Below, piece by piece: positions 1 to 22,155 of a stretch of DNA of 33,273 nucleotides. The first letter of the stretch is position 1. Every line of letters starts with the position of its first letter. Below the pieces are notes generated by a model, which saw nothing but the letters and a program-made list of their open reading frames with translations, ran no database searches and was not told where the DNA came from. A program made the translations under genes and the position numbers. Location of the stretch: contig JAHEEU010000007.1 of the NCBI GenBank assembly GCA_024640545.1, positions 1 to 33,273 on the forward strand. The letters run 5' to 3'. The stretch comes from Geobacteraceae bacterium. GTDB lineage: Bacteria; Desulfobacterota; Desulfuromonadia; Desulfuromonadales; BM103.

Positions 1-226
1 CATGGTCAATGCTAAACGCTTCGAGAGTTTTCCGGATAGTGCCCATGGTGTTGATGGCCACGGTGCGCTTGGCTTTGTTGACGTAACCGTAATAGGCCGG
101 GATGGCGATTGCCGCGAGTGTACCGATGATCGCCACGACGACCAGCAGTTCAATCAGGGTGAACCCCCTGGTCCGCCTGCCAGGCTTTGCCGGATGTTGA
201 ACGACGGATGGTAACCGGTCATGCAT
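1..226 (-). CDS. Type IV pilin / pseudopilin, N-terminal part (cut by window edge)
   Basis: The reverse strand reads from an ATG at 226 off the window edge at 1, giving about 75 residues. After a 21-residue basic leader comes the prepilin peptidase site, RG followed by FTLIELL, with the conserved Glu at mature position 5. A hydrophobic helix of about 20 residues rich in V, A and I follows, then the start of the amphipathic part ([11 protein letters not shown]). This is the N-terminal methylation domain of pilins and type II secretion pseudopilins, processed by PilD and assembled at the inner membrane. GAGGGG lies about 8 bases before the ATG. The leader is longer than in PilA of most Geobacter, and the missing C-terminus prevents telling a major pilin from a minor pilin or pseudopilin. 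Confidence 0.88.
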
Positions 227-349
227 GAGATGGCCCCTCGTTTGTGGGGTTTGCCAGATCGAATGCTGTTGGCAGATGTGACAAGCCCCGCCCAGGAAAT
301 TCATGAATAAAGATGTCCCGGGCTTTCGAAATTAAACATCAAAAGCACA

Positions 350-370
350 AAAAGCAACAATCAGACCAAA
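350..370 (-). promoter_or_regulatory. Candidate sigma-54 (-24/-12) promoter of the pilin gene
   Basis: On the minus strand the sequence reads TTGG, eight bases, then TTGCTTTTT. The GG (366-367) and GC (354-355) are separated by exactly ten bases, as RpoN promoters require. The CAC after TGG is not conserved. Transcription would begin near 342, leaving a leader of about 115 bases before the pilin ATG. Pilin genes are often RpoN/PilR dependent, which supports the reading; no activator site was identified. Confidence 0.45.
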
Positions 371-691
371 AATGGATATTCACGGCAAACGACATGGTCC
401 TCCGGTGGCTTCTCGTGCCCTCACAACTGTTCGCAGGCCGCGTGAAACTTTTGCCCTCTCCCTGACGTAAATCGACGTCGACAAATCCTTCCAGTGCTTG
501 TTATCTCTCAAAAAAAACAGGCGGTTATAGTCACTTTTCAGGTTCTCTGAATGCCCGGTCCATGGACTATCTGAGTTGCTCAGACGCTTTGCAGGGACGT
601 TGCCGGCGTTGCGGACATGACACGGAAAGGGGCCCGGGCTCCAATATCGGCAGACAGGGAAAATTTGCTTTTGGCAGGGGTCAATGAACTT

Positions 692-716
692 GAAATTGTC
701 TAGAAGTGACAATTTC
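692..716. repeat. Perfect 9-bp inverted repeat, 7-base loop
   Basis: GAAATTGTC (692-700) and GACAATTTC (708-716) are perfect complements around TAGAAGT. It is AT-rich with no following T-run, so it looks more like a protein-binding palindrome or RNA hairpin than an intrinsic terminator. Its role is unknown. Confidence 0.6.
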
Positions 717-768
717 TGCTTGGGCGAAAGAGCAATTATCGCTCCGGTTGTTTATCTGAGGAGGGCAG

Positions 769-807
769 AAAAATCTCAGGCCACCCGGCGCGAGAACGGT
801 GCGGCCT
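769..807 (-). terminator. Probable intrinsic terminator after the small Cys-rich gene
   Basis: On the minus strand, just downstream of the gene ending at 858, AGGCC (803-807) pairs with GGCCT (778-782) around a GC-rich interior that can pair further. A run of five T follows (769-773). The stem has internal mismatches, so confidence is moderate. Confidence 0.45.
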
Positions 808-857
808 GGGCCGGGGATCCTAATGGCTGGCGAGCCCCCGCCCGGCATCAGGTGGCT

Positions 858-1070
858 TTAGCCATGCCAAAGAGTCCAGGGCAGGTCGTTTTTATTGGAG
901 CTCTGGGTAAATTTCGCCTTGCAGGCCACGCACTGGTAGTCCTGCTCTTCGAATCCCCTGGGTTTTTTGCCGGTGAAAATTCGGCACGTGCCGATCTTCA
1001 CCAAATATTCATGCGGCTTGCCATTAAGCGATTTCTTGGCCTGATCTTCACACAGTTCACAAAGATTCAT
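858..1070 (-). CDS. Small Cys-rich protein, 70 aa, function unknown
   Basis: A 70-residue protein with Cys at 4, 7, 29, 47 and 50, in CELC and CVAC pairs. The two CxxC knuckles suggest a small zinc-ribbon fold, probably cytoplasmic since there is no signal peptide. The ATG at 1070 is preceded by GGGGAG two bases upstream, a plausible though close ribosome site. It lies 43 bases downstream of the 134-aa zinc-finger gene on the same strand and may be co-transcribed with it. A probable terminator follows its TAA. I do not recognise the family by name. The Cys spacing and ribosome site make it more likely real than a chance frame. Confidence 0.65.
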   Translation of the reverse strand: MNLCELCEDQAKKSLNGKPHEYLVKIGTCRIFTGKKPRGFEEQDYQCVACKAKFTQSSNKNDLPWTLWHG

Positions 1071-1113
1071 GTCTCCCCACCTGATTGCCGGACCAATGGC
1101 GTGACGTAACAGA

Positions 1114-1518
1114 CTATTTGCAGCGCATCGTTTTCTTGCCGTCTTCGAACAGGACTTCGACCTTGCGTGGGCCGACCAGGCGCTGTACCAGTCCGAGGCC
1201 GAAAACCGGGTGATTCATCAGGGACTTGACCTTGAAGGCCGTCGTCATGGAATAGTCGGTCGCCCGTGCACTGTCCATAGTCGGTCGCAGGGCTTCCCAC
1301 TCCTTGGACTCGGCGATCCTGGGGTCAACCGTACGGCGTGGCGCGGTCTTTTTCGCTACGGTCGGCGGCCGGTACTTGTGTTGTCGGCTGCAGTTGCTGC
1401 ATTGGACCTGGTCTGGCCCTGCTTCGGACATGCTGACGATGGTGTGCTCGGCGTTTTTACGGCATTTGGTGCAGCGGGCTTCGATCGCGTCACCTGTGGA
1501 CAGTGTGCTGTTTGACAT
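1114..1518 (-). CDS. Zinc-knuckle protein with C-terminal KOW/CarD-like module, unknown function
   Basis: A 134-residue protein. The N-terminal half has two CxxC knuckles (Cys16/19 and Cys40/43), consistent with one bound zinc. A basic Pro-rich linker (about 50-62) follows. The C-terminal 45 residues contain HPVFGLGLVQRLVGPRKVEV followed by LFEDG, a compact beta-rich module of the type seen as a tail in many delta-proteobacterial proteins and resembling small KOW/CarD-type nucleic-acid or polymerase-binding domains; that likeness is my inference. An upstream ATG at 1548 lacks a ribosome site, whereas the ATG at 1518 has AAGGGAG seven bases before it, so I chose 1518. A role in transcription or RNA binding is possible but unproven. 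Confidence 0.75.
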   Translation of the reverse strand: MSNSTLSTGDAIEARCTKCRKNAEHTIVSMSEAGPDQVQCSNCSRQHKYRPPTVAKKTAPRRTVDPRIAESKEWEALRPTMDSARATDYSMTTAFKVKSLMNHPVFGLGLVQRLVGPRKVEVLFEDGKKTMRCK

Positions 1519-1786
1519 GGAAGAACTCCCTTGCTTGGGGTTGGCCATAAAATGTCCAATAAAAACCAGGGGGAGCGCTGGAGTCTACCGGGCAGGTATG
1601 ACATCGGCGTGCCTGCACAACCCGCAGGCCTTGTCGGGTCGTGCCGCTCTGTAACGTCATCTCCGTACGATGTGGAGGGCTGCAGTGGTTTCCTGGAGGG
1701 TTTGGGGATTGCGTTACCAGTGCATTGTACATGTTTCCCCGGGGAAAAGATACCTGCATCCTGGGCGGTGCCAGGCAGCGGTCTGT

Positions 1787-2584
1787 TCAACGGGCGCTGC
1801 GCCTGTTCAACTCATCCTGGGCGAGCTGCTTTTGCGCCGGCCTCAGGCGACGGGAATTGATCAGGTCGCGTACTTCGGGGGCGCGCAGCTGGGGGAGCAG
1901 GAGAGTGAACCAGATGTCTGGGGTCTTCCGGTTCTTGAGAATGGCCAGCCTCAAGTTGGGACGTGCTTTCCACTTGGGGTGCCTGGCGATCAGGGAGATC
2001 GTCTCGGCCGTTGCCTTGGCGCTGTTGAGGAACTGCAGGATGGCCACCTCGCGCAGGCGTGGACTGTTCAGGCAGGCCTCCATCAGGCGGGGTTCGCCTT
2101 CACTGAGAATGGCTGCGACGACCGCGGCAGTCGCACGGCGGGCCAGGGTCATCTTGTTCCCCAGTTCCGTGGTCGGCAGGCGCTGCAGGATGGTCCGTTC
2201 GGCGGCGAATTTCTGGTCGGGGGTCACGCCCGGAATCGTACAGAGGTCAACCAGTTCAAAGAGATGCAGGTGCGGTAGCAGGACGAGCATGACCGGACCT
2301 GGCGTCCCGGGGTTCTTCGCCAGGGCGATCCGCAGGCGATGACTGTGCCTGGACACGTCCAGCTGGGAAATGGCTTTGAGGAGGTCCTCGCCGAGGTCCC
2401 GTCGCTTGAGCAGGACCATGAGGTGGTCCTCGTTCAGGTTCCGGTTCTTCAGGAGTGAGCGCAGCACCTGCCTGTCGGGGTCGAGCAGCAGCTGGAAGAG
2501 CTCTGCTCCGGTGGCCGTGAGTGCTTTGTAGAGGCGCCTGCCGAGTTCGGTGCCGATCTCTGATGAGCGGGGTTCTTCAGCCAT
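1787..2584 (-). CDS. All-helical repeat protein (HEAT-like), unknown function
   Basis: A 265-residue, Leu/Arg-rich protein without signal peptide or membrane segment. It appears to consist of repeated short helices: patterns such as LLKNRNLNEDHLMVLLKRRD, IALAKNPGTPGPVMLVLLPHL and LRLAILKNRKTPDIWFTLLL recur about every 35-45 residues, each with a conserved Asn and a turn Pro. This is typical of HEAT or DUF2336-like solenoids that bind other proteins. It begins 31 bases downstream of the tgt gene on the same strand and is probably translated from the same message. No catalytic motif is visible. A link to tRNA modification is suggested only by position. Confidence 0.7.
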   Translation of the reverse strand: MAEEPRSSEIGTELGRRLYKALTATGAELFQLLLDPDRQVLRSLLKNRNLNEDHLMVLLKRRDLGEDLLKAISQLDVSRHSHRLRIALAKNPGTPGPVMLVLLPHLHLFELVDLCTIPGVTPDQKFAAERTILQRLPTTELGNKMTLARRATAAVVAAILSEGEPRLMEACLNSPRLREVAILQFLNSAKATAETISLIARHPKWKARPNLRLAILKNRKTPDIWFTLLLPQLRAPEVRDLINSRRLRPAQKQLAQDELNRRSAR

Positions 2585-2615
2585 GCTTCAAGTATGCGGA
2601 TTGCAGAAGCAGTCG

Positions 2616-3740
2616 TCAATGCCCTGAGCTGCCGTCATCACGCAGGTACTCACCGAGGAAGTCGGCCTTGAAGCCGGCGTAGTCATTGGCTTCGATGGCG
2701 GCGCGCGCCCCGGCGACCATGTCGAGATAAAAACGCACATTGTGGATCGCCGAAAGGGTCGCCGAGAGCACCTCGTTGGCGCTGAACAGGTGGTGGAGGT
2801 AGGCCCGGGTGAAGTTGCTGCAGCAGTAGCAGCTGCACGATGCATCGACCGGGAAGAAGTCGCGACGATAGCGGCGGTTGGTCAGGCGGATCTTGCCGCG
2901 CCTGGTAAACAGGGTGGCGCTGCGGGCGTAGCGGGTCGGAATCACGCAGTCGAACATATCCATGCCGCGCTCGATGCTCTCCAGGATGTCTTCCGGCAGG
3001 CCGACACCCATCAGGTATCTGGGCTTGGCCTCGGGCAGGAACGGCTCGGTGTAGTCCACGACCTTTTTCAGCAGCTCAATCCCCTCGCCGACACTGACGC
3101 CGCCGACCGCATAGCCGGGAAAATCCATTGCGGTGAGGGCTTTGGCGCAATCGCGGCGCAGGTCGTCGTACACGCTGCCCTGAACGATCCCGAACAGGGC
3201 CTGGTCCGTCCGGCCATGGGCCTTGAGACACTCTTCGGCCCAGCGCAGGGTTTTGCGAATCGATTTGCTGGCGTAATCATGGGTCGCGGGGTAGGGGATG
3301 CATTCATCGAACGCCATGATGATATCGGCCCCGAGCTGGTTCTGGATGCTGGTCGCCTCGCGGGGGCCGAGGAAGATGCGGTCGCCGTTGATTTCGTGCT
3401 TGAAAAAGACCCCGCTCTCGGTAATCTCCTTCTGGGGGAGCGAGAAGACCTGGAACCCGCCGCTGTCGGTGAGGATCGATTTCGGCCAGTTCATGAACCG
3501 GTGCAGGCCGCCGGCCTTGGCCACCAGGCCTTCTCCCGGCTTGAGGTGCAGGTGATAGGTGTTGGAGAGGATAATCTGGGCTCCAGCGTCATCGACCTGG
3601 GCCGGAGTCATCGCCTTGAGGGCGCCATGGGTCCCCACCGGCATGAAGATCGGAGTTTCGATCGTGCCGTGCGGCGTCGTCACCCGCCCGCGGCGGGCGC
3701 GGGTCCCTTGATCTTTGGCAAGCAGTTCAAATTGCAGCAT
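2616..3740 (-). CDS. tgt: tRNA-guanine transglycosylase paralog 1
   Basis: A 374-residue TIM-barrel enzyme of the TGT family, which exchanges guanine 34 of GUN-anticodon tRNAs for preQ1 in bacteria. The base-binding Asp92 ([11 protein letters not shown]), Asp145-Glu-Cys147 (FDECIPYPAT), GGVSVGE (213-219) and nucleophile Asp264 (FDCVIPTR) are present. Zinc ligands Cys302, Cys304, Cys307 and His333 are complete, so it should be active. Cys147 is the residue usual in preQ1-type enzymes. It differs from the second TGT in this window: GGV for GGL, PTRYARSAT for PTRNARNGV, and CCSNFTRAYLHHL for [13 protein letters not shown]. The N-terminus starts directly at the barrel. The ATG has only a weak ribosome site. 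It is divergent from a Cas6-like gene. Confidence 0.93.
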   Translation of the reverse strand: MLQFELLAKDQGTRARRGRVTTPHGTIETPIFMPVGTHGALKAMTPAQVDDAGAQIILSNTYHLHLKPGEGLVAKAGGLHRFMNWPKSILTDSGGFQVFSLPQKEITESGVFFKHEINGDRIFLGPREATSIQNQLGADIIMAFDECIPYPATHDYASKSIRKTLRWAEECLKAHGRTDQALFGIVQGSVYDDLRRDCAKALTAMDFPGYAVGGVSVGEGIELLKKVVDYTEPFLPEAKPRYLMGVGLPEDILESIERGMDMFDCVIPTRYARSATLFTRRGKIRLTNRRYRRDFFPVDASCSCYCCSNFTRAYLHHLFSANEVLSATLSAIHNVRFYLDMVAGARAAIEANDYAGFKADFLGEYLRDDGSSGH

Positions 3741-3755
3741 GTTATATTAATTTCT

Positions 3756-3784
3756 TTGGCGTAAAGGTGGCCCTGTTAAATAAT
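3756..3784 (+). promoter_or_regulatory. Candidate sigma-70 promoter of the Cas6-like gene
   Basis: TTGGCG (3756-3761) and AATAAT (3779-3784) are 17 bases apart. Transcription would start near 3791, which would exclude the upstream GTG at 3790 as start codon and favours the ATG at 3844 or 3853. Confidence 0.4.
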
Positions 3785-3843
3785 AACCGGTGAGCGATGC
3801 GGCGGACTCTATCAGAATTCTACAAGGACTACAACAACCCGCA

Positions 3844-4803
3844 ATGGTTGCCATGAACGATTTACTGCTGCCGGCATGGCCGGATATGCTGCAAAGCGTC
3901 GATGTCGTGCAGGTGCGATTTGTCCTCGACTTTGTCACGCCGTGCCAGGTGCGGCCCGCCGATTTTCTCGGCATCGGCCGCAGCCTGTGTGTGGCGGCGA
4001 AGCAACTGCCCGGTGCACGGGATACCGCTGCCGCACGGCAATGGGACACTCTTTTCCAGCCGGCGCTGAGCGACGATCCGGTCGCCAGGCGGAAATTTCA
4101 GAAGCCGGCGCCCGGATTCGTCGTCACCATGCCTGTCTCCGAGGAAAAGCATTTCGCTCCCGGTGACCGCCTTGAACTGCCGGTCCTGTTCCTCGGCACT
4201 AGCATCCCGCTGATTATCGACTTTTTGCGCAGCCTGGTACAGCTCGGCCGTCAGGGGCTGGTTGCCGGTGATGGCTGTTTCGAAGTGTCCGAAGTCTACA
4301 GCAGGGACTCTGATCGGAGCGATGCCCTGGTCTGGAGGCAGACCGACCCCTTCGAGCCTTTGTCCTGTTCCGTCCAGCCCTTGAACTGGCTGCTGCAAAA
4401 ACATTGCATCACAAGGTGCTTGACCGTAAAGTACTTGACACCGACCCGCCTGCTGGTCAACGGCAAACCGCTCAGAAAACCGGGTTTCGCCCAGGTTTTC
4501 CCGTTCATGCTGCGGCGTGTCACCTCGATGCTGTATGCTCATGGCGGCGTCGAAGCGCTCGATGAGCCAGCGCAACTCTTGGCCCTGCTCCGAGAGCTGG
4601 AAGTGCATGACACGCAGTTCCACTGGCACGATTGGCGGCCTTTGCCGGGTCGCCAGGGGCTCATGGTCGGTGGGTTTGTCGGCCAGACGCATATTTCCGG
4701 TCAGGCCCTTGAAGAGCTTTACTGGGTGCTTGCGGTCGCTGCCCTGCTCGGCATTGGCAAGGGGGCGCCATACGGTGCAGGACACTTCGCTCTGAGCCCC
4801 TGA
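3844..4803 (+). CDS. Solitary Cas6-like RAMP protein
   Basis: About 319 residues from the ATG at 3844; GTG 3790 and ATG 3853 are in-frame alternatives and none has a good ribosome site. It matches the layout of the Cas6 family with the DUF2276-type C-terminal domain (pre-crRNA endoribonucleases). An N-terminal ferredoxin-like strand (VQVRFVLDF) leads to a Gly-rich turn and strand (LGRQGLVAGDGCFEVSEVY, about 134-152). LTPTRLLVNGKPL (about 198) is followed by a helix with FPFMLRRVTSML, then GGFVGQTHISG (about 276) and the terminal glycine-rich RAMP loop GIGKGAPYGAG (about 303-313). No cas1, cas2, effector genes or repeat array is present in the window. It may process crRNA from an array elsewhere or have another RNA target. 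Catalytic residues could not be assigned by eye. Confidence 0.72.
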   Translation: MVAMNDLLLPAWPDMLQSVDVVQVRFVLDFVTPCQVRPADFLGIGRSLCVAAKQLPGARDTAAARQWDTLFQPALSDDPVARRKFQKPAPGFVVTMPVSEEKHFAPGDRLELPVLFLGTSIPLIIDFLRSLVQLGRQGLVAGDGCFEVSEVYSRDSDRSDALVWRQTDPFEPLSCSVQPLNWLLQKHCITRCLTVKYLTPTRLLVNGKPLRKPGFAQVFPFMLRRVTSMLYAHGGVEALDEPAQLLALLRELEVHDTQFHWHDWRPLPGRQGLMVGGFVGQTHISGQALEELYWVLAVAALLGIGKGAPYGAGHFALSP

Positions 4804-4809
4804 ATCTTG

Positions 4810-4837
4810 TTGCTTCTCTGCAAGTGATTGTTATAGT
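4810..4837 (+). promoter_or_regulatory. Candidate sigma-70 promoter of the zinc-ribbon gene
   Basis: TATAGT (4832-4837) is a good -10. TTGCTT (4810-4815) lies 16 bases upstream. It sits right after the Cas6-like stop codon and 32 bases before the next ATG. Confidence 0.4.
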
Positions 4838-4869
4838 TAGACAATACCGCCATGCCCAGGAGGCGAGCG

Positions 4870-5181
4870 ATGACCGATGCATGGGAAGAGCGGAAAAAGG
4901 CTTTAGAAAATAAATATTTTCATGACCTGGAAAAAGAACTGATTGAAAAAATCAAGACGGAAACCCGGGGAAAACTGATCCGTCAGTATTGTCACAACCG
5001 GTGTCCGAAGTGTGGTGACAGGATAGAACCTATCGATTTCAGGGGAGTTCCCATGGATAAATGCCTCAACTGCGGTGGGGTATGGCTGGGCCCGAACGAT
5101 CTCAGAGTCCTCTCTGCGAAGGACCATCGGACTTGGTTTGACCGCTGGTTTAAAGAGGAGGCGGTTGACGCCAAGCCATGA
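4870..5181 (+). CDS. TFIIB-type zinc-ribbon protein
   Basis: A 103-residue protein with a charged coiled N-terminal half (WEERKKALENKYFHDLEKEL) and a C-terminal zinc ribbon. The four Cys are CPKCG and CLNCGG, with the family phrase GVPMDKCLNCGGVWLGPNDL, typical of the zf-TFIIB family of small bacterial proteins of unknown role. The start is set by AGGAGG at 4858-4863, six bases before the ATG at 4870; the ATG at 4852 would put that ribosome site inside the gene. It stands between the Cas6-like gene and the GGDEF gene, 39 bases from the latter, and may share its transcript. Confidence 0.85.
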   Translation: MTDAWEERKKALENKYFHDLEKELIEKIKTETRGKLIRQYCHNRCPKCGDRIEPIDFRGVPMDKCLNCGGVWLGPNDLRVLSAKDHRTWFDRWFKEEAVDAKP

Positions 5182-5220
5182 CTCCCCAGCAATTGACCAG
5201 CCCTCCCCGCCAGGACCGGT

Positions 5221-6195
5221 ATGCACTTTAACCTGGTACGTTACATTATCATCAGTTTCCTGGTCGCGGTTGCCGGTTTCATGCTGGCCTGCCTGCTGGC
5301 CATGTCTTCTCTGGAGCAGGTCGCCACCCAGCTGGTGGGAACGGATGTCAAGGGCTCTCTCGACGCGGTGCGCCATTGTCAGTTGGGTGTGCTGATTCTG
5401 GGCCTGGGCGGTCTCCTGGGCAGTCTGGTGGCCATGACCTTCGCCGTTCAGCAAGCCTCAGGGATTGTCACGCGCCTGCGTCAGGCCACCAGGTATCTTG
5501 GCGAGGTGGTCCTCGACGAGATGTCACCCAGTGAATTCCTGACCGCCAGCGACGGCCTTGATCGTGAAATCCAGGAGATGATGCTGAAGATCAAGGACAG
5601 TCAGCAGCGTTACCTGGATGCCAGTCCGTTAACTCGCCTGCCGGGCAACATGGCCATCGAGCAGGTGCTCAAGGAAAAGATGGAGCGGGGGGAGAAGTTT
5701 GCGCTCTGCTATATCGATCTGGATGATTTCAAGGCTTTCAATGACAAGTATGGCTACGCCAAGGGGAGTGAATTGATCAAGATGACGGGTGAAGTCATCT
5801 ACCGCGCCAAGGACAAATACGCCCACAAGCAGGATTTTGTCGGGCATATCGGTGGTGACGACTTTGTCCTGGTGACGTTTCCGGACCGGGTCAACGAAGT
5901 CTGTCAAGCAATTATCAGCGAGTTTGACCGGCTGATCCCCGGATATTATCATGCCGAAGACCGTGCCAAAGGTTTTATCGAGGGGACGGATCGCTACGGA
6001 GTAAAGCGGCGTTTTCCACTGATGTCGATTTCGATTGCTGTGGTTTCAGATGTCAGGCGTTCCTTTAACTCGCCCATAGAAATTGCCCGTGTGGCATCGG
6101 AGATCAAGGACTATGTCAAGAGCCTTCCCGGCAGCAACTACCTGGTCGATCGGCGGGGCATCTCCCGCAGAGATGACGGCCCTCCCGGAAACTAA
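5221..6195 (+). CDS. Membrane GGDEF nucleotidyl cyclase, candidate Hypr (cGAMP-type)
   Basis: 324 residues: transmembrane helices about 8-28 and 52-75, a HAMP-like linker helix, and a GGDEF domain from about 135 (SPLTRLPGN) to 310. The signature is GGDDF (211-215) and metal Asp166 is present, as is guanine-contacting Asn174, so catalysis is expected. Aligned with PleD, the second guanine contact (Asp344) falls on Ser183 in GYAKGSELI. Asp-to-Ser here is the change described for Hypr GGDEF enzymes of Geobacter (GacA), which make 3',3'-cyclic AMP-GMP beside cyclic di-GMP. The inhibitory RxxD site reads HKQD (202-205), so product inhibition may be weak. There is no obvious periplasmic sensor, only a loop of about 25 residues. 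A weak AGGA precedes the ATG. Confidence 0.88.
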   Translation: MHFNLVRYIIISFLVAVAGFMLACLLAMSSLEQVATQLVGTDVKGSLDAVRHCQLGVLILGLGGLLGSLVAMTFAVQQASGIVTRLRQATRYLGEVVLDEMSPSEFLTASDGLDREIQEMMLKIKDSQQRYLDASPLTRLPGNMAIEQVLKEKMERGEKFALCYIDLDDFKAFNDKYGYAKGSELIKMTGEVIYRAKDKYAHKQDFVGHIGGDDFVLVTFPDRVNEVCQAIISEFDRLIPGYYHAEDRAKGFIEGTDRYGVKRRFPLMSISIAVVSDVRRSFNSPIEIARVASEIKDYVKSLPGSNYLVDRRGISRRDDGPPGN

Positions 6196-6225
6196 AAAGC
6201 GGCAGGGCACTTGAAGCCCTGCCGC
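6194..6225 (-). terminator. Intrinsic terminator of the AMMECR1 gene
   Basis: A perfect 10-bp stem (GCGGCAGGGC 6199-6208 with GCCCTGCCGC 6216-6225, 7-base loop). On the minus strand it is followed by five T. It may also slow plus-strand transcription from the GGDEF gene, but no T-run exists on that side. Confidence 0.85.
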
Positions 6226-6249
6226 CTTGCCGATTACAGAAGCCGCCAG

Positions 6250-6810
6250 CTATTTTGCCGGGTCCTCGCCGAAGACCTGGGCACTGAAAACATAGATCTC
6301 AGCATCGTCAGCTTCCCAGGCGTCGGTGGGCAGTCCTGCCTTGATGCAGGTCTGTTTCAGAAATGTCTGGCGATCCCAGTCGTGCTCCGTTGCCACCTGC
6401 GGCAGGAGCACACCCCGGTAAAAGCTCTTCTCGATGTACACACCATGTCTTCCGACTTCGATTTCCTGGATGTCCTCTATCTTGTGCAGAGGTGACAGCA
6501 CCGAGATTTCCAGGGTGAAGTTGTTCAGGTCTTCTTCTTTGAGAGGGTAGAAACGAGGGTCCTTGGCCGCCGAAGCCTGGGCCATGTGGGCAACCTCTTT
6601 GAAGAGCGGCAGTTCAGACTGGAAATTGCCGATGCACCCGCGCAATTGTCCATTCTGCTTGATGGTGACAAAGCATCCGTTGCGTTGGTTGAGGGCTTTT
6701 TCTTCGCGGGGTTCAACGTACTCCTGCCCGGTTTGCACGCCGTGTACGATGGCCTGGCGGGCAATGGCCAGAAGGACTTGCTTTTCGTGAGCGTTTAACT
6801 CTCGTTCCAC
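6250..6810 (-). CDS. AMMECR1-domain protein (AmmeMemoRadiSam protein A type)
   Basis: A 186-residue protein spanning the whole AMMECR1 domain. It shows GCFVTIKQNGQLRGCIGNFQ with the invariant LRGCIG, then a stretch ending DPRFYPL and LEISVLSPLHKI. The family's molecular activity is not settled. In many bacteria it is encoded with a MEMO-domain protein and a radical SAM protein (AmmeMemoRadiSam), but those partners are not next to it here. The start is a GTG at 6810 with GGAGG four bases upstream. A good promoter lies at 6860-6888 and a terminator directly after the gene, so it is probably a single-gene transcript. Confidence 0.88.
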   Translation of the reverse strand: MERELNAHEKQVLLAIARQAIVHGVQTGQEYVEPREEKALNQRNGCFVTIKQNGQLRGCIGNFQSELPLFKEVAHMAQASAAKDPRFYPLKEEDLNNFTLEISVLSPLHKIEDIQEIEVGRHGVYIEKSFYRGVLLPQVATEHDWDRQTFLKQTCIKAGLPTDAWEADDAEIYVFSAQVFGEDPAK

Positions 6811-6859
6811 GCGGCCTCCGATATGTCAGGGATGAATGCTTTGACTTGAGAACGGGCCA

Positions 6860-6888
6860 ATCATAGTGCCATACCATGATTTTTTCAA
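6860..6888 (-). promoter_or_regulatory. Sigma-70 promoter of the AMMECR1 gene
   Basis: On the minus strand TTGAAA (6883-6888) and TATGAT (6860-6865) are separated by 17 bases, five of six matches in each box. Transcription would start about 6853, 43 bases before the GTG. Confidence 0.65.
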
Positions 6889-7024
6889 GGTATCTCAGCT
6901 CGTTCCGGATTAATTTTGCCAGATTGAGCCAGGGGCCGTCTCCATTTTGCGCGTGAGGACACAAGTCATCGCGCAAGCCGTACAGTGTTGGCCGTGAAAA
7001 ACTGCAGGTCTGCGCCTGATGACG

Positions 7025-8152
7025 TTAAATCTGCGGGGCAGCGTTTTCTGCGGCGACCCTGTCGACTATGCAGTGGATGCCTTCGCCCTTGAGTCCCGGT
7101 CCGAAGCAGCCGTTGCAGGAGATGCAGGTGGCTGTGTAACCGTCGTCCCGGCGCCAGATATCCGGCAATCCGGGTTCCCTGATCAGCGGCCGGGAGAGGG
7201 CGAAGAGGTCGGCATCGCCTTCCCAAAGCAGTTTCTGCATGACGCCGCACGAACGCAGTCCGCCCACGACAATGACCGGGACGGTGACGGCCTGTTTGAT
7301 CATGCGTGACAGCTCGGCGTTGTAAGCTTCCTTTTCGGGGCCATCGATTTTCTGCCGGACGGGACTCTTAACCCCGGACGCTGAGCTTCCCGAGCTGACC
7401 TCGATGGCATCGATGCCGAGTTCTTCGAGGCGCTTCGCGATGGCCACGCCATCCTGTGGCTGCAGCCCGCCAGGCAGGTGGTCGGCGGCGGTCAGTTTGA
7501 TCGTGACCGGGTAGTCGCTGCCAACGGCGGCCCTGACCGCGGCAAAGACCTCTTCGAGAAACATCATGCGTTTTTCCAGCGTGCCGCCGTAGGCATCCCG
7601 ACGCTGGTTGCAGAGTGGCGAGAGGAACTGATTGATCAGGTAGCCGTGCGCGCCGTGCAGTTGGACACCGTCGAATCCGGCATGCCTGGCACGGGCCGCG
7701 GCCCCGGCGAAGGCGGCAACGATTGCTCTGATGTCAGCAGGACTCATCTCTTTCGGCGGCTCCTGGTAGCCGGCGAAATCCGTCGCCGAAGGGGCCAGCG
7801 GCTGGCAGCCGATGACCTTGCTGGAGGTCTGCCCGCCGGCGTGCACCAGCTGACAGAAGATCACTCCGCCTTCCTGGTGGACGGCTTCGGTCAAATGCTG
7901 CAGCCCGGGCAGGTGGGAGTCATGGCAGATGCCCATCTTGCCGGGAAGCTGCTTGCCGTCGGCACGCACGTAGCTGTAGCCGCTGGTGATCAGGCCTGTA
8001 CCACCCATGACCAGGCCGCGGTAGTAGGCGACCAGCTTCTGGGTGACCTTGCCGTCATCATCGCACATCCCCTCCCAGGTGGCGCTGCGCACGAAGCGGT
8101 TGTTCAGGGTGATATTGCCGATCCGGGTGTTGTCGAACAGGGTTTTTTCCAT
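7025..8152 (-). CDS. FMN-dependent NADH:flavin oxidoreductase, Old Yellow Enzyme family
   Basis: 375 residues from the ATG at 8152, which has GAGGAG six to seven bases upstream; the frame is open 14 codons further but without a ribosome site. The TIM barrel begins with LFDNTRIGNITLNNRFVRSA. It has the family's substrate/FMN motifs: QLVHAGGQT, FDGVQLHGAHGYLINQFLSP, then NQRRDAYGGTLEKR, and VPVIVVGGLRS near the phosphate site. Near the C-terminus is CISCNGC followed by another Cys eleven residues later. This is reminiscent of the iron-sulfur motif linking OYE barrels to 2,4-dienoyl-CoA reductase-type modules, yet the flavin/NAD half of those enzymes is absent. It probably reduces an activated C=C bond; the substrate is unknown. 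Confidence 0.9.
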   Translation of the reverse strand: MEKTLFDNTRIGNITLNNRFVRSATWEGMCDDDGKVTQKLVAYYRGLVMGGTGLITSGYSYVRADGKQLPGKMGICHDSHLPGLQHLTEAVHQEGGVIFCQLVHAGGQTSSKVIGCQPLAPSATDFAGYQEPPKEMSPADIRAIVAAFAGAAARARHAGFDGVQLHGAHGYLINQFLSPLCNQRRDAYGGTLEKRMMFLEEVFAAVRAAVGSDYPVTIKLTAADHLPGGLQPQDGVAIAKRLEELGIDAIEVSSGSSASGVKSPVRQKIDGPEKEAYNAELSRMIKQAVTVPVIVVGGLRSCGVMQKLLWEGDADLFALSRPLIREPGLPDIWRRDDGYTATCISCNGCFGPGLKGEGIHCIVDRVAAENAAPQI

Positions 8153-8367
8153 CGGGGCTCCTCGCGGACGGACGGAGGGAAAAACACCCACCATCCTGAA
8201 AATGCTCTATTCATAACACGTTTCGGCACTGTTTACCATGCGGCCGTCAGGGTTTTGGCCGTGGGTCAGTGTTCGGAGAGACTTTTTGTATAGCAAAGCT
8301 TTTCAGCGTTTTTTCAGGTCAGGGGGCTGTCCCTGGGTTGTCTTCAGTCAGAGTCAACACCATAAAA

Positions 8368-8395
8368 GGGACAGTCCCCGTGCGGGGACAGTCCC
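8368..8395. repeat. REP-like palindrome, type A
   Basis: GGGACAGTCCCC, a GTGC spacer, then GGGGACAGTCCC. The whole is an almost perfect 28-base palindrome. A copy with one difference occurs in opposite orientation at 33182-33209. A partial copy (GGGGGCTGTCCC) lies just upstream, near 8322-8333. Such elements are typical of REP/BIME families spread by RAYT-type Y1 transposases; none is encoded here. Confidence 0.75.
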
Positions 8396-8449
8396 TGAAA
8401 CCGGCGGGTCGCGTCCCGCCAGACGCCATACTTTTGCCCGTCAGCAAAA

Positions 8450-8477
8450 GGGACAGGCACCTGCGGAGCCGGTCCCT
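8450..8477. repeat. REP-like palindrome, type B
   Basis: GGGACAGGC and GCCGGTCCC arms enclose ACCTGCGGA. It matches 25 of 28 positions of the element at 29615-29642. It lies 55 bases from the type A copy, as in paired REP (BIME) structures. The stretch 8153-8633 otherwise holds no gene that I can support. Confidence 0.75.
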
Positions 8478-8587
8478 GTACGCGCAACTCGCAGACGACC
8501 CGGCTGCCCGCTGGGACCGGCGGTTCTGATTCTGGTTTTGACTGAGGTTTATTTTGGGGTTTTACGTGTGATCCCGATTTGCCGGGC

Positions 8588-8622
8588 AAAAAAAGGGGCC
8601 GCCCACGCACGGGGGCGGCCCC
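8588..8622 (-). terminator. Intrinsic terminator of typA
   Basis: A 10-bp GC stem (GGGGCCGCCC 8595-8604 with GGGCGGCCCC 8613-8622, 8-base loop). On the minus strand seven T follow (8588-8594). It begins 12 bases after the typA stop codon. Confidence 0.9.
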
Positions 8623-8633
8623 TGGGGGCGGGC

Positions 8634-10445
8634 TTACTTGGCTTTTTTAACCGCTTTCTTGCGCTCGTTCTCGTCGAGCAGCCGCTTGCGCAGGCGAATT
8701 GATTTCGGCGTGACCTCGACCAGCTCATCCTGGTCGATGAACTCCAGGGCCTGCTCGAGGGTCAGGTCGCGCGGCGTCGTCAGGCGAATCGCTTCATCGC
8801 TGCCCGAGGCGCGCACGTTGGTCAGCTTCTTCCCTCTGCAGGCATTGACGACCAGGTCGTTCTCCTTGGCATGCTGGCCGATGATCATCCCTTCGTAAAC
8901 GTGGACGCCGGCGCCGAGAAAGAGAAGCCCCCGATCCTGCAGGTTGAAGAGCGAGTAGGCAACCGTCTCGCCGTCCTCGATGGCGATCAGGACCCCGTTC
9001 TTGCGCCCGGGGATCGCGCCTTTCCAGGGGGCATAGCCATGGAAGGTATGGTTCATGACGCCGGTGCCGCGGGTATCGGTCAAGAATTCACTGCGGAAAC
9101 CGATCAGACCGCGGGCCGGGATTATGAACTCGAGGCGGTTGACGCCCTCGAGGGCGTTCATGGCGACCATCTCGGCTTTGCGGGGGCCGAGCTTTTCGAT
9201 CACTGTCCCCTGGAACTCCTCGGGGACGTCGATGACCAGGTACTCCATCGGCTCGCACTGTTCTCCAGCGATCTCCCTGCAGATAACTTCCGGCTTGGAA
9301 ACGGCCAGCTCGAAGCCTTCACGACGCATGTTCTCGATCAGGATCGACAGATGCAGTTCGCCACGACCGGAAACCCGGAAGGTGTCGGTGTTGGCGGTTT
9401 CCTCGACACGCAGGGAGACGTTGGTGCGCAGCTCCTTGAAGAGGCGGTCGCGAATATTGCGCGACGTCACGTATTTCCCCTCACGGCCGGCAAATGGCGA
9501 GGAGTTGACGATGAAGTTCATAGCCAGGGTCGGCTCGTCGATGGAGACATAAGGGAGAGATTTCGGCTTTTCAACACAGGCCAGGGTCTCACCGATGCCG
9601 ATATTCTCGAAGCCGGCAACGGTGACGATATCGCCGGCACTGGCCTCGGTCAGTTCGATCTGCTTGAGCCCTTCGTAACCGAGCAGCTTGGTAATCCGCC
9701 CGCGGGAGATTTCGCCGCTTTTCATGATCAGGGCAACGGTTTCGCCGGTGTGCACCCGGCCGTTGAAAATCTTGCCGGTAGCGACCCGTCCAAGGTAGTC
9801 GTTGTAGTCGATCGACGTCACCAGCATTTGGAAGGGGGCATCGGCATCGGCAACCGGTGGCGCGACCCGCTCGCGGATCATTTCGAACAGCGGCTCGAGG
9901 TTGTTGGACTCGTCCGCGAGTTCACGCTTGGCGAAGCCCTGCTTGGCACTGGTGTAGACGATGGGGAAGTCCAGTTGCTCCTCGTCGGCGTTAAGCTCGC
10001 AGAAGAGGTCGAAGACCATGTCGACGACCTTTTCCGGCCTGGCCCCGGGCCGATCGATCTTGTTGATGACCACGATCGGGCGGATGCCGAGGTCGAGGGA
10101 TTTCTTCAGGACGAAACGGGTCTGGGGCATCGGCCCGTCAAAGGCGTCGACCAGCAGCAGGACCGAGTCGACCATTTTCAGGACCCGCTCCACTTCGCCG
10201 CCGAAATCGGCGTGGCCGGGGGTGTCGACGATGTTGATCTTGAGTCCGCCGTGTTGAATCGACAGGTTCTTGGACAGGATCGTGATGCCCCGTTCCTTCT
10301 CGAGATCGTTGCTGTCCATCACCCGTTCGGTGATGACCTGGTTCTCACGGAAGACTCCGGATTGTTTGAGCATGGCGTCGACCAGGGTGGTTTTGCCGTG
10401 GTCGACGTGGGCGATAATGGCGATGTTGCGCAGAAAACTTGTCAT
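8634..10445 (-). CDS. typA: Ribosome-associated translational GTPase TypA/BipA
   Basis: 603 residues, the usual length. GTPase motifs are all present: AHVDHGKTT (G1, residues 12-20), RGITI (G2), [14 protein letters not shown] (G3), NKID (G4) and SAKQG (G5). Domain II and the EF-G-like domains III and V follow, then the BipA-specific C-terminal domain with [18 protein letters not shown] and [20 protein letters not shown]. TypA binds the 70S ribosome at the EF-G site and helps 50S assembly and growth under stress such as cold. The start ATG at 10445 has AAGG about eight bases upstream. It has its own promoter and a strong terminator, so it is monocistronic. Confidence 0.97.
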
Positions 10446-17359: not shown

Positions 17360-19399
17360 TCAGCCGGGGAGTTGTCCTTCACTGCATAATTCAATAAATG
17401 CGGTGGCCACTTCCGGATCGAACTGGGACCCGGCGTGGTCAATGATTTCCTGGATGGCAATCTCGTGGGTCAGGGCTTTGCGATACGGTCTGTCGGATGT
17501 CATCGCATCGTAAGTGTCGCAGACGGCGAGGATCTTCCCCTCGATACGCCATTCTGAACCGCTCAGCCCCTTCGGGTAGCCGTTGCCGTCGAACCGCTCA
17601 TGGTGCTGCTCGATGATGTCGCGAACCGTACCGAGGAAATGAATCGGCTCGAGTATGCGTACGCCGATCGATGGGTGCAATTTGAGGACATCGATGTCAG
17701 CGGCGGTGAGCTTCTCTTTCTTGTGCAGCAGCGCCACGTCGATGCCGATCTTGCCGATGTCATGCAGTACCGCGGCCTGCTCGAGCTGCTTGAGAGGCTC
17801 ACCGTCCAGTCCGATCTTCTTGGCCAGCGCCACGCTGTAGCGGGTCACCCGATCAGAATGACCGCGGGTGTATGCATCGCTGGCTTCGATTGCCGAGACG
17901 AGCGCCCGGACGGTGTTGAGATAGGAGGTCTCCTGCTCTTCGTAGAGGCGGGCGTTGCGAATGGCAACACTTGCCTGGGCGGCAATGGTCGATAGCAGTT
18001 CAAGGTCGGCTTGGCCGAAGTACGAGCCGTCGACAGGATTGGCGATGGTGATCGTGCCGATGACCTTCTGCTTGTCGGTCAGGGGAGCACATATGACCGA
18101 TTGCCGAGCAAAGCCCAGTCGGCTGGTCTTGTTGAACTCGTGCGACTTGTCGATGTCCTCGACGAGTTTTGCCTGCCTGTTGTTTATGACCCAGTGGGAG
18201 ACGCCGCCAGGTTCGAGTGCGATCTCCCTGGAACGATCCAGCTCATCGCTGAGACCGGCCGCCCCGCCGATAGCCAGTTTGCCGGTTTTTTCGTTGAGGA
18301 TGAGGATGTAGCTGACCTGGGACTTCAGCGTCTCTCCGCTTTTCCTGCAGAGCAGGTCCAACAACCTGTCGAGGTCGACGGTGGCATTGATGGCCAGCCC
18401 CATCTTGTTGAGAGCCTGAAGGCGGTCTACCGCCCGGGTGAGACCGACGTTCTTTTCGTCCAGCTCGCTGGCGAGGTCGGCAATTCTGTAGTTGGCTTCT
18501 TCGATCTCCTCGATGCGCTCCTCGAGGTTGATATTCAGGTATTCAATTTCCAGGAGACGTTCCTGCAAGGACATTTTCATCGCCTGGAGTTCTTCGTTAT
18601 GGGCGAGTTTCTCATGGCTGACAGCGAGCTCGCGTTCTTGTTTGACGGTATCAGCCATGAGCTCGCGCAGGCGCTGTACCATGGCATTGAACTTGGCGGA
18701 GAGCAGGGACATTTCATTGGAACTGCTGACCGTCGCATGGGCCAGCTCAAAGTGGCCCTGTTCAACCTGGTCCATGGCGTTGACTAGCTTGCGAATCGGC
18801 GTATCGACGTAAACGACTAGAAATATTGTGATTGTCAGTAGAAGAATCACTAGCATGACCCCGGAGGTGATCATGGTGGCATTGCGGCCGCTGGTCTGCA
18901 TGTCGGCCAGGTTGTCAAGGGACAGCTGCAGGTTCAGGATGCCCAGCACCTTGATGCTTTGATCGTGACAGGCATAGCAGGGCTGCTGGTTGTAGATCGG
19001 CACGATGGAGTTGAAGTGTTCATGATCGGACATGCTGCTGATATACGAGTAGTTGCCGGAACGATAGGCCGCCAGTTCCGCTGCCGAGACCTGGGTGCCG
19101 ATCTCTTCGGGGTGCGCTGCCATCAGGATGCGCCCCGACTCGTCGAATATCCGCACATTGTCAATGGCCGGTTCATCTTTGATGTTGTCGAGGATATGAC
19201 CGACATTTTCGTTCTTGCCGCTGGCCATGTCCGAGATGATGCTGTTGCGGACCGTTTCGGCCAGCATGCGACCATGTTCGGTCGCCAGATTGCTGAGCAA
19301 GGTTTTTTGAGTCTGCAGGTTGTACCAGGTCGTCAGGCCAATAGAGGCCAGCATTATGATGCAGCACAAACCGAGAAATTTGATCTTGAGAGAATTCAT
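17360..19399 (-). CDS. Membrane HD-GYP phosphodiesterase with periplasmic heme c motif, HAMP and GAF
   Basis: 679 residues. TM1 is about 8-26 and TM2 about 175-198, enclosing a periplasmic domain of 145 residues with CYACH (141-145), a c-type heme attachment motif. HAMP (about 199-250), a long coiled coil (about 252-330) and a GAF domain (about 335-485) follow. The HD-GYP domain has GHS (513), HDIGKIG (HD 546-547) and HHERFDGNGYPKGL (599-612), all metal ligands apparently intact. Such enzymes hydrolyse cyclic di-GMP, and some in Geobacter prefer cyclic AMP-GMP. The heme suggests redox, NO or ligand sensing outside the inner membrane, passed by HAMP to the output domain. The ATG has no clear ribosome site. 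Confidence 0.93.
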   Translation of the reverse strand: MNSLKIKFLGLCCIIMLASIGLTTWYNLQTQKTLLSNLATEHGRMLAETVRNSIISDMASGKNENVGHILDNIKDEPAIDNVRIFDESGRILMAAHPEEIGTQVSAAELAAYRSGNYSYISSMSDHEHFNSIVPIYNQQPCYACHDQSIKVLGILNLQLSLDNLADMQTSGRNATMITSGVMLVILLLTITIFLVVYVDTPIRKLVNAMDQVEQGHFELAHATVSSSNEMSLLSAKFNAMVQRLRELMADTVKQERELAVSHEKLAHNEELQAMKMSLQERLLEIEYLNINLEERIEEIEEANYRIADLASELDEKNVGLTRAVDRLQALNKMGLAINATVDLDRLLDLLCRKSGETLKSQVSYILILNEKTGKLAIGGAAGLSDELDRSREIALEPGGVSHWVINNRQAKLVEDIDKSHEFNKTSRLGFARQSVICAPLTDKQKVIGTITIANPVDGSYFGQADLELLSTIAAQASVAIRNARLYEEQETSYLNTVRALVSAIEASDAYTRGHSDRVTRYSVALAKKIGLDGEPLKQLEQAAVLHDIGKIGIDVALLHKKEKLTAADIDVLKLHPSIGVRILEPIHFLGTVRDIIEQHHERFDGNGYPKGLSGSEWRIEGKILAVCDTYDAMTSDRPYRKALTHEIAIQEIIDHAGSQFDPEVATAFIELCSEGQLPG

Positions 19400-19909: not shown

Positions 19910-22155
<2,246 letters not shown>

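Follow-up and report, generated by a model that had tools for sequence, protein, structure and literature searches.

A candidate membrane-anchored GGDDF-type cyclic-dinucleotide synthase, probably related to GSU1937, in a Geobacteraceae bacterium

The window analysed here, a stretch of 33,273 nucleotides from a Geobacteraceae bacterium (contig JAHEEU010000007.1), contains an open reading frame at positions 5221–6195 of the forward strand (ATG start, 324 amino acids), which raises the question of which cyclic dinucleotide its product makes and to which of the known cGAMP synthases it is related. The sequence-only reading had described a GGDEF protein with two membrane helices and no receiver domain, and this description was borne out: the only Pfam domain found was GGDEF (PF00990, E=1e-12), and hydropathy indicated two hydrophobic helices at about residues 5–31 (5233–5313) and 52–77 (5374–5451), corresponding to helices 2–39 and 43–95 in the AlphaFold2 model. 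The stretch between the helices comprises only about 20 residues, and no 4HB sensor is present. The mean pLDDT of the model was 79.6, with values of 86–97 across most of the GGDEF domain, and residues of about 138–314 were aligned structurally with a Z score of 16.9 to both PleD (2WB4) and GacA (6D9M). Comparison of the gene with its nearest relative (86% identity) gave a dN of about 0.08 and a dS of 0.6–0.7 (dN/dS of about 0.11–0.14). This low dN relative to dS indicates that the gene is under purifying selection.

Asp166 (5716–5718), Asn174 (5740–5742), and Ser183 (5767–5769, codon AGT) aligned without gaps to Asp327 (metal), Asn335 (guanine edge), and Asp344 (base selectivity) of PleD, respectively; Asp166 was invariant among the relatives aligned. 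The residue at the position of PleD Asp344, equivalent to Ser348 of GmGacA, is thus Ser rather than Asp, as had been proposed from the sequence. The degenerate I-site HKQD (5824–5835) noted at that stage was also found, with Asp205 opposite Asp362 and His202 opposite Arg359 of PleD. Since the arginine of the RxxD motif is missing, the I-site should not mediate canonical product inhibition. On the other hand, the claim that the catalytic positions were otherwise intact has to be withdrawn, because the signature motif is GGDDF (5851–5865), with Asp214 (5860–5862) at the position of the general-base Glu. The motif is preceded by His-Ile (GHIGGDDF) instead of Arg-Tyr, and the C-terminal part of the domain has GSN where canonical domains have GRN, whose Arg corresponds to Arg446 of PleD.

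Active GGDEF enzymes have Glu as the fourth residue of the motif, and this Glu has been proposed to serve as general base across the dimer; GacA was inactivated by a Glu-to-Gln exchange at this residue, and natural enzymes whose PleD 344 position is Ser or Thr were found with GGDE[F/Y] only (PMC6456294). The window protein has the Ser of this Hypr definition and lacks its GGDE[F/Y] motif; therefore, it is not a Hypr enzyme under the rule of PMC6456294, a point overlooked in the sequence-only reading. A cross-dimer residue other than Arg (Tyr304 in GacA) is a further feature of Hypr GGDEF domains (PMC6456294). In the window protein, LPGN occurs where LxNxR is expected, with a local gap, and Asn143 is the ungapped partner of Tyr304. 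Since LPGN was also found in GGDDF proteins with Asp at the 344 position, it is not confined to the Ser forms.

All close relatives of the window protein carry GYxxGS and GGDDF, and the family was found in 244 of the 277 genomes of the class (E ≤ 1e-20). Among 142 pattern matches to the GGDDF superfamily, which were chosen by similarity to the window family, overlap at some loci, and are neither independent nor a census, 96 had Ser with GGDD[F/Y] and 41 had Asp, the Asp forms including EAL-CBS-GGDDF and receiver-GGDDF proteins. The EAL-CBS-GGDDF proteins (PA3258 type) share the LPGN and GHIGGDDF signatures of the superfamily with the window protein but differ from it in the residue at the 344 position, which is Asp, and in being joined to an EAL domain. 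In a 54-row tree, the window protein was placed inside a 32-row Ser clade (support 98/95), and the matching fork of a 131-row tree had a support of 94, with three members carrying Asn. Judging from these alignments and trees, Asp is common at this place across the superfamily, and one clade has fixed Ser. Nearly every member of that clade has retained Ser, together with GGDD[F/Y], Asp166, and the invariant Lys296 and Lys300; the retention of Ser and the low dN/dS show that Ser183 is not a product of chance. Actinomycetota records (Solincola and others; L134, L137, L140, and L160) form a small separate GGDDF group, which also has Ser at the Hypr position.

GacA and the GacA-type protein of the genome (L027) grouped together (100/97) among canonical GGDEF domains, wholly apart from the Ser/GGDDF clade. 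Forcing a common Ser clade cost 94 log units and was rejected (AU p = 3.5e-19, with a Ser set that left out L026, which has Ser), and two changes at the Ser position were counted on the tree. These results indicate that Ser at the PleD 344 position arose separately in both lineages. The domain tree and the AU test rule out the window protein as a GacA orthologue. It resembles GacA (GSU1658/Gmet_1914, PDB 6D9M) in the Ser and in the GGDEF fold, whereas GacA combines a receiver domain with a GGDEF domain whose fourth motif residue is Glu. Within the Ser clade, the window group stood beside a Geobacterales group (93/79 in the 54-row tree); the alternative pairing with a GGDDY paralogue group was not rejected (p = 0.14), and the placement suggested by the tree is thus not firm.

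The features of this clade recall GSU1937 of Geobacter sulfurreducens, the sole Ser-bearing GGDEF protein of that organism besides GacA, which combines a GGDDF motif with a HAMP domain and membrane segments and has numerous homologues among the Deltaproteobacteria. It was published in 2022 as the first active GGDDF enzyme and as a second source of cGAMP in G. sulfurreducens besides GacA (PMC8835794). Its deletion lowered a cGAMP reporter by about 25% on fumarate and 70% on Fe(III) citrate; a GacA-GSU1937 fusion carrying the GGDDF domain made cGAMP and c-di-GMP, and this activity was abolished in a GADDF mutant, whereas in E. coli neither the wild-type protein nor three of the four fusions showed activity (PMC8835794). 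The published deletion primers for GSU1937 translate to VQKLIAS...STPGSNY. VQKLIAS is the N-terminal end in three proteins of our set (L085, L101, and L104), PGSNY occurs in many Geobacterales clade members, and the Geobacterales members carry HAMP and GGDDF as GSU1937 does. Patterns derived from the primers had no match in the 277 genomes of the class and the genome contigs; the second pattern may cross a differing codon, and the lack of a match does not mean that the species is missing. Hence, the evidence that the clade contains GSU1937 appears strong but indirect, as it comes from published features and primer-coded ends.

The window protein has the GSU1937-type combination of Ser at the 344 position with GGDD[F/Y] and N-terminal membrane segments, without EAL or HD-GYP domains, and is about 44–55% identical over the aligned domain to the Geobacterales relatives of this type, whose ends match those coded by the primers. 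Unlike GSU1937, it has two helices joined by a short loop with neither a Pfam HAMP nor a 4HB domain, and it adjoins Cas6-like and zinc-ribbon genes. HAMP was found in L101, L105, L046, and L097 and is common in the clade rather than defining for it. By these comparisons, the window protein is a relative of the GSU1937 type, not of GacA, and belongs to a kind already described.

The Asp at the fourth motif position, the His ahead of the motif, and GSN in place of GRN would suit a GGDDF domain without catalytic activity, serving as a membrane receptor or scaffold through binding of an NTP or a cyclic dinucleotide. GGDDF-EAL relatives without a detectable cyclase effect point the same way, PA3258 having had no effect on c-di-GMP (PMC8835794), as does the clade member L056, whose GGDYY in place of GGDDY shows that the fourth residue can vary. 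However, the clade has almost no variation at the metal, base, and Lys positions, and the GGDDF domain of the presumed relative GSU1937 was active while its GADDF mutant was not (PMC8835794). We consider a dead domain quite improbable.

The window protein is instead probably a membrane-anchored GSU1937-type GGDDF enzyme that would convert GTP and ATP to 3',3'-cGAMP and also form c-di-GMP, either as a side product or as a co-product; we infer both the activity and the dominant product. In such an enzyme, two GGDDF half-sites would meet in a dimer, as in GacA, and are probably kept in contact by the helical linker that follows the second membrane helix. Ser183 would accept either purine, the metal would be held by Asp213 and Asp166, and Asp214 would stand in for the general-base Glu across the dimer. 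In favour of this reading, we count Ser183 at the Hypr position, the 32-row clade, the activity of GSU1937, purifying selection, the GGDEF fold, and an A20 riboswitch in the genome; the absence of the HAMP domain of GSU1937 and the unusual Asp at the general-base place count against it. The earlier suggestion of a second, membrane-placed source of cGAMP is well supported through the GSU1937-type clade, since GSU1937 contributes to cGAMP (PMC8835794), but the protein is not a variant of GacA, which lies with L027 among the ordinary GGDEF domains.

Ten GGDEF domains were detected in the genome, four of them with Ser: the window protein, a GGDDY paralogue (L002), the GacA-type L027 (best PDB match 6D9M, E=7e-48), and L026. 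The last (G000:C170), an open frame of 352 amino acids, is a second protein besides L027 with Ser and GGDEF. A genome scan for cGAMP-type GEMM riboswitches, which had been proposed together with the sequence-only reading, found nine GEMM-I riboswitches, eight with G20 (c-di-GMP type) and one with A20, the nucleotide that sets cGAMP selectivity (PMC6456294). The A20 riboswitch (L011, G000:C237, 1500–1590, reverse strand) is followed by a terminator-like stem and then an open reading frame with a receiver-like N-terminus. Together, the GacA-type proteins and the A20 riboswitch make cGAMP signalling machinery plausible in this genome, in which the window protein would not be the sole source, and GacA-type proteins could account for all of its cGAMP. 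With the threshold applied, 54 of 58 relatives had GacA-type proteins, and their motif pattern was matched by 23 of the 30 sequences examined, all 23 with Ser and GGDE[F/Y]. A comparison asking whether A20 riboswitches persist where GacA is missing had few such genomes to draw on, some of them incomplete.

The preponderance of G20 riboswitches fits a rival reading in which the window protein is a GGDDF diguanylate cyclase with c-di-GMP as its main product in the cell, and Ser183 relaxes base choice without shifting it. The F4 fusion of GSU1937 had c-di-GMP activity comparable to that of GacA and less cGAMP activity (PMC8835794). Yet Ser is held clade-wide while sister GGDDF groups keep Asp, and Ser-to-Asp reversions turned GacA and Bd0367 into strict diguanylate cyclases. 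Weighing both sides, we regard a mainly c-di-GMP-forming enzyme as unlikely, although somewhat less so than a dead domain, and retain the GSU1937-type cGAMP synthase as the preferred reading.

Upstream of the GGDDF gene lie a zinc-ribbon protein gene (PF13453; 4852–5181, forward strand), separated from it by 39 bp, and a Cas6-like protein gene (PF10040; 3790–4803, forward strand), both conserved neighbours by synteny. The f1 loci examined share the order Cas6-like, zinc ribbon, and GGDDF with a divergent tgt, other families retain it in full or in part, and tgt also adjoins the GGDDF gene in several Geobacterales loci. The periplasmic domain and HAMP signature are absent from the window protein and its close kin, and HAMP is still present in the syntenic relative L046. 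We considered that co-production with Cas6-like RNA-binding and zinc-ribbon proteins lets this branch of the GSU1937 clade, which has lost its sensor, couple cGAMP synthesis at the membrane to an RNA-related task and not to metal respiration; we hold this to be very unlikely.

The Cas6-like protein has a C-terminal G-rich stretch, GIGKGAPYGAGH. Its gene was kept in 52 of 58 related genomes, whereas Cas1 occurred in only 18, and this distribution suggests a core gene that does not depend on CRISPR adaptation. Cas1 was not found in the genome of the window (assembly about 88% complete), nor was an obvious CRISPR array in positions 1–9000 of the window, and a CRISPR link for this neighbour was set aside. 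Rfam gave no match in the window. Elsewhere in the window, two tgt paralogues encoding tRNA-guanine transglycosylase (2616–3740, reverse strand, and 20995–22155, forward strand) are 48% identical and lie 17 kb apart. At 17360–19399 (reverse strand), an HD-GYP protein (HHERFDGNGYP) with GAF and HAMP domains carries a CYACH heme-c motif in its N-terminal sensor; it is possibly a redox-sensing cyclic-dinucleotide phosphodiesterase.

The chemistry of a GGDDF cGAMP synthase and the existence of a membrane-bound second synthase have already been published; the present analysis adds the conserved gene neighbourhood, the reduced domain architecture, and the finding that this lineage is separate from that of GacA. 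If the window protein is active, the GGDDF cGAMP synthases, of which a single protein has been tested, would come to comprise a clade found in most genomes of the class. The separate origin of the base-selectivity Ser means that a rule of Ser with GGDE[F/Y] misses real candidates. With four Ser-bearing proteins among its ten GGDEF proteins, this genome is a good one in which to ask how parallel cGAMP synthases share their work.
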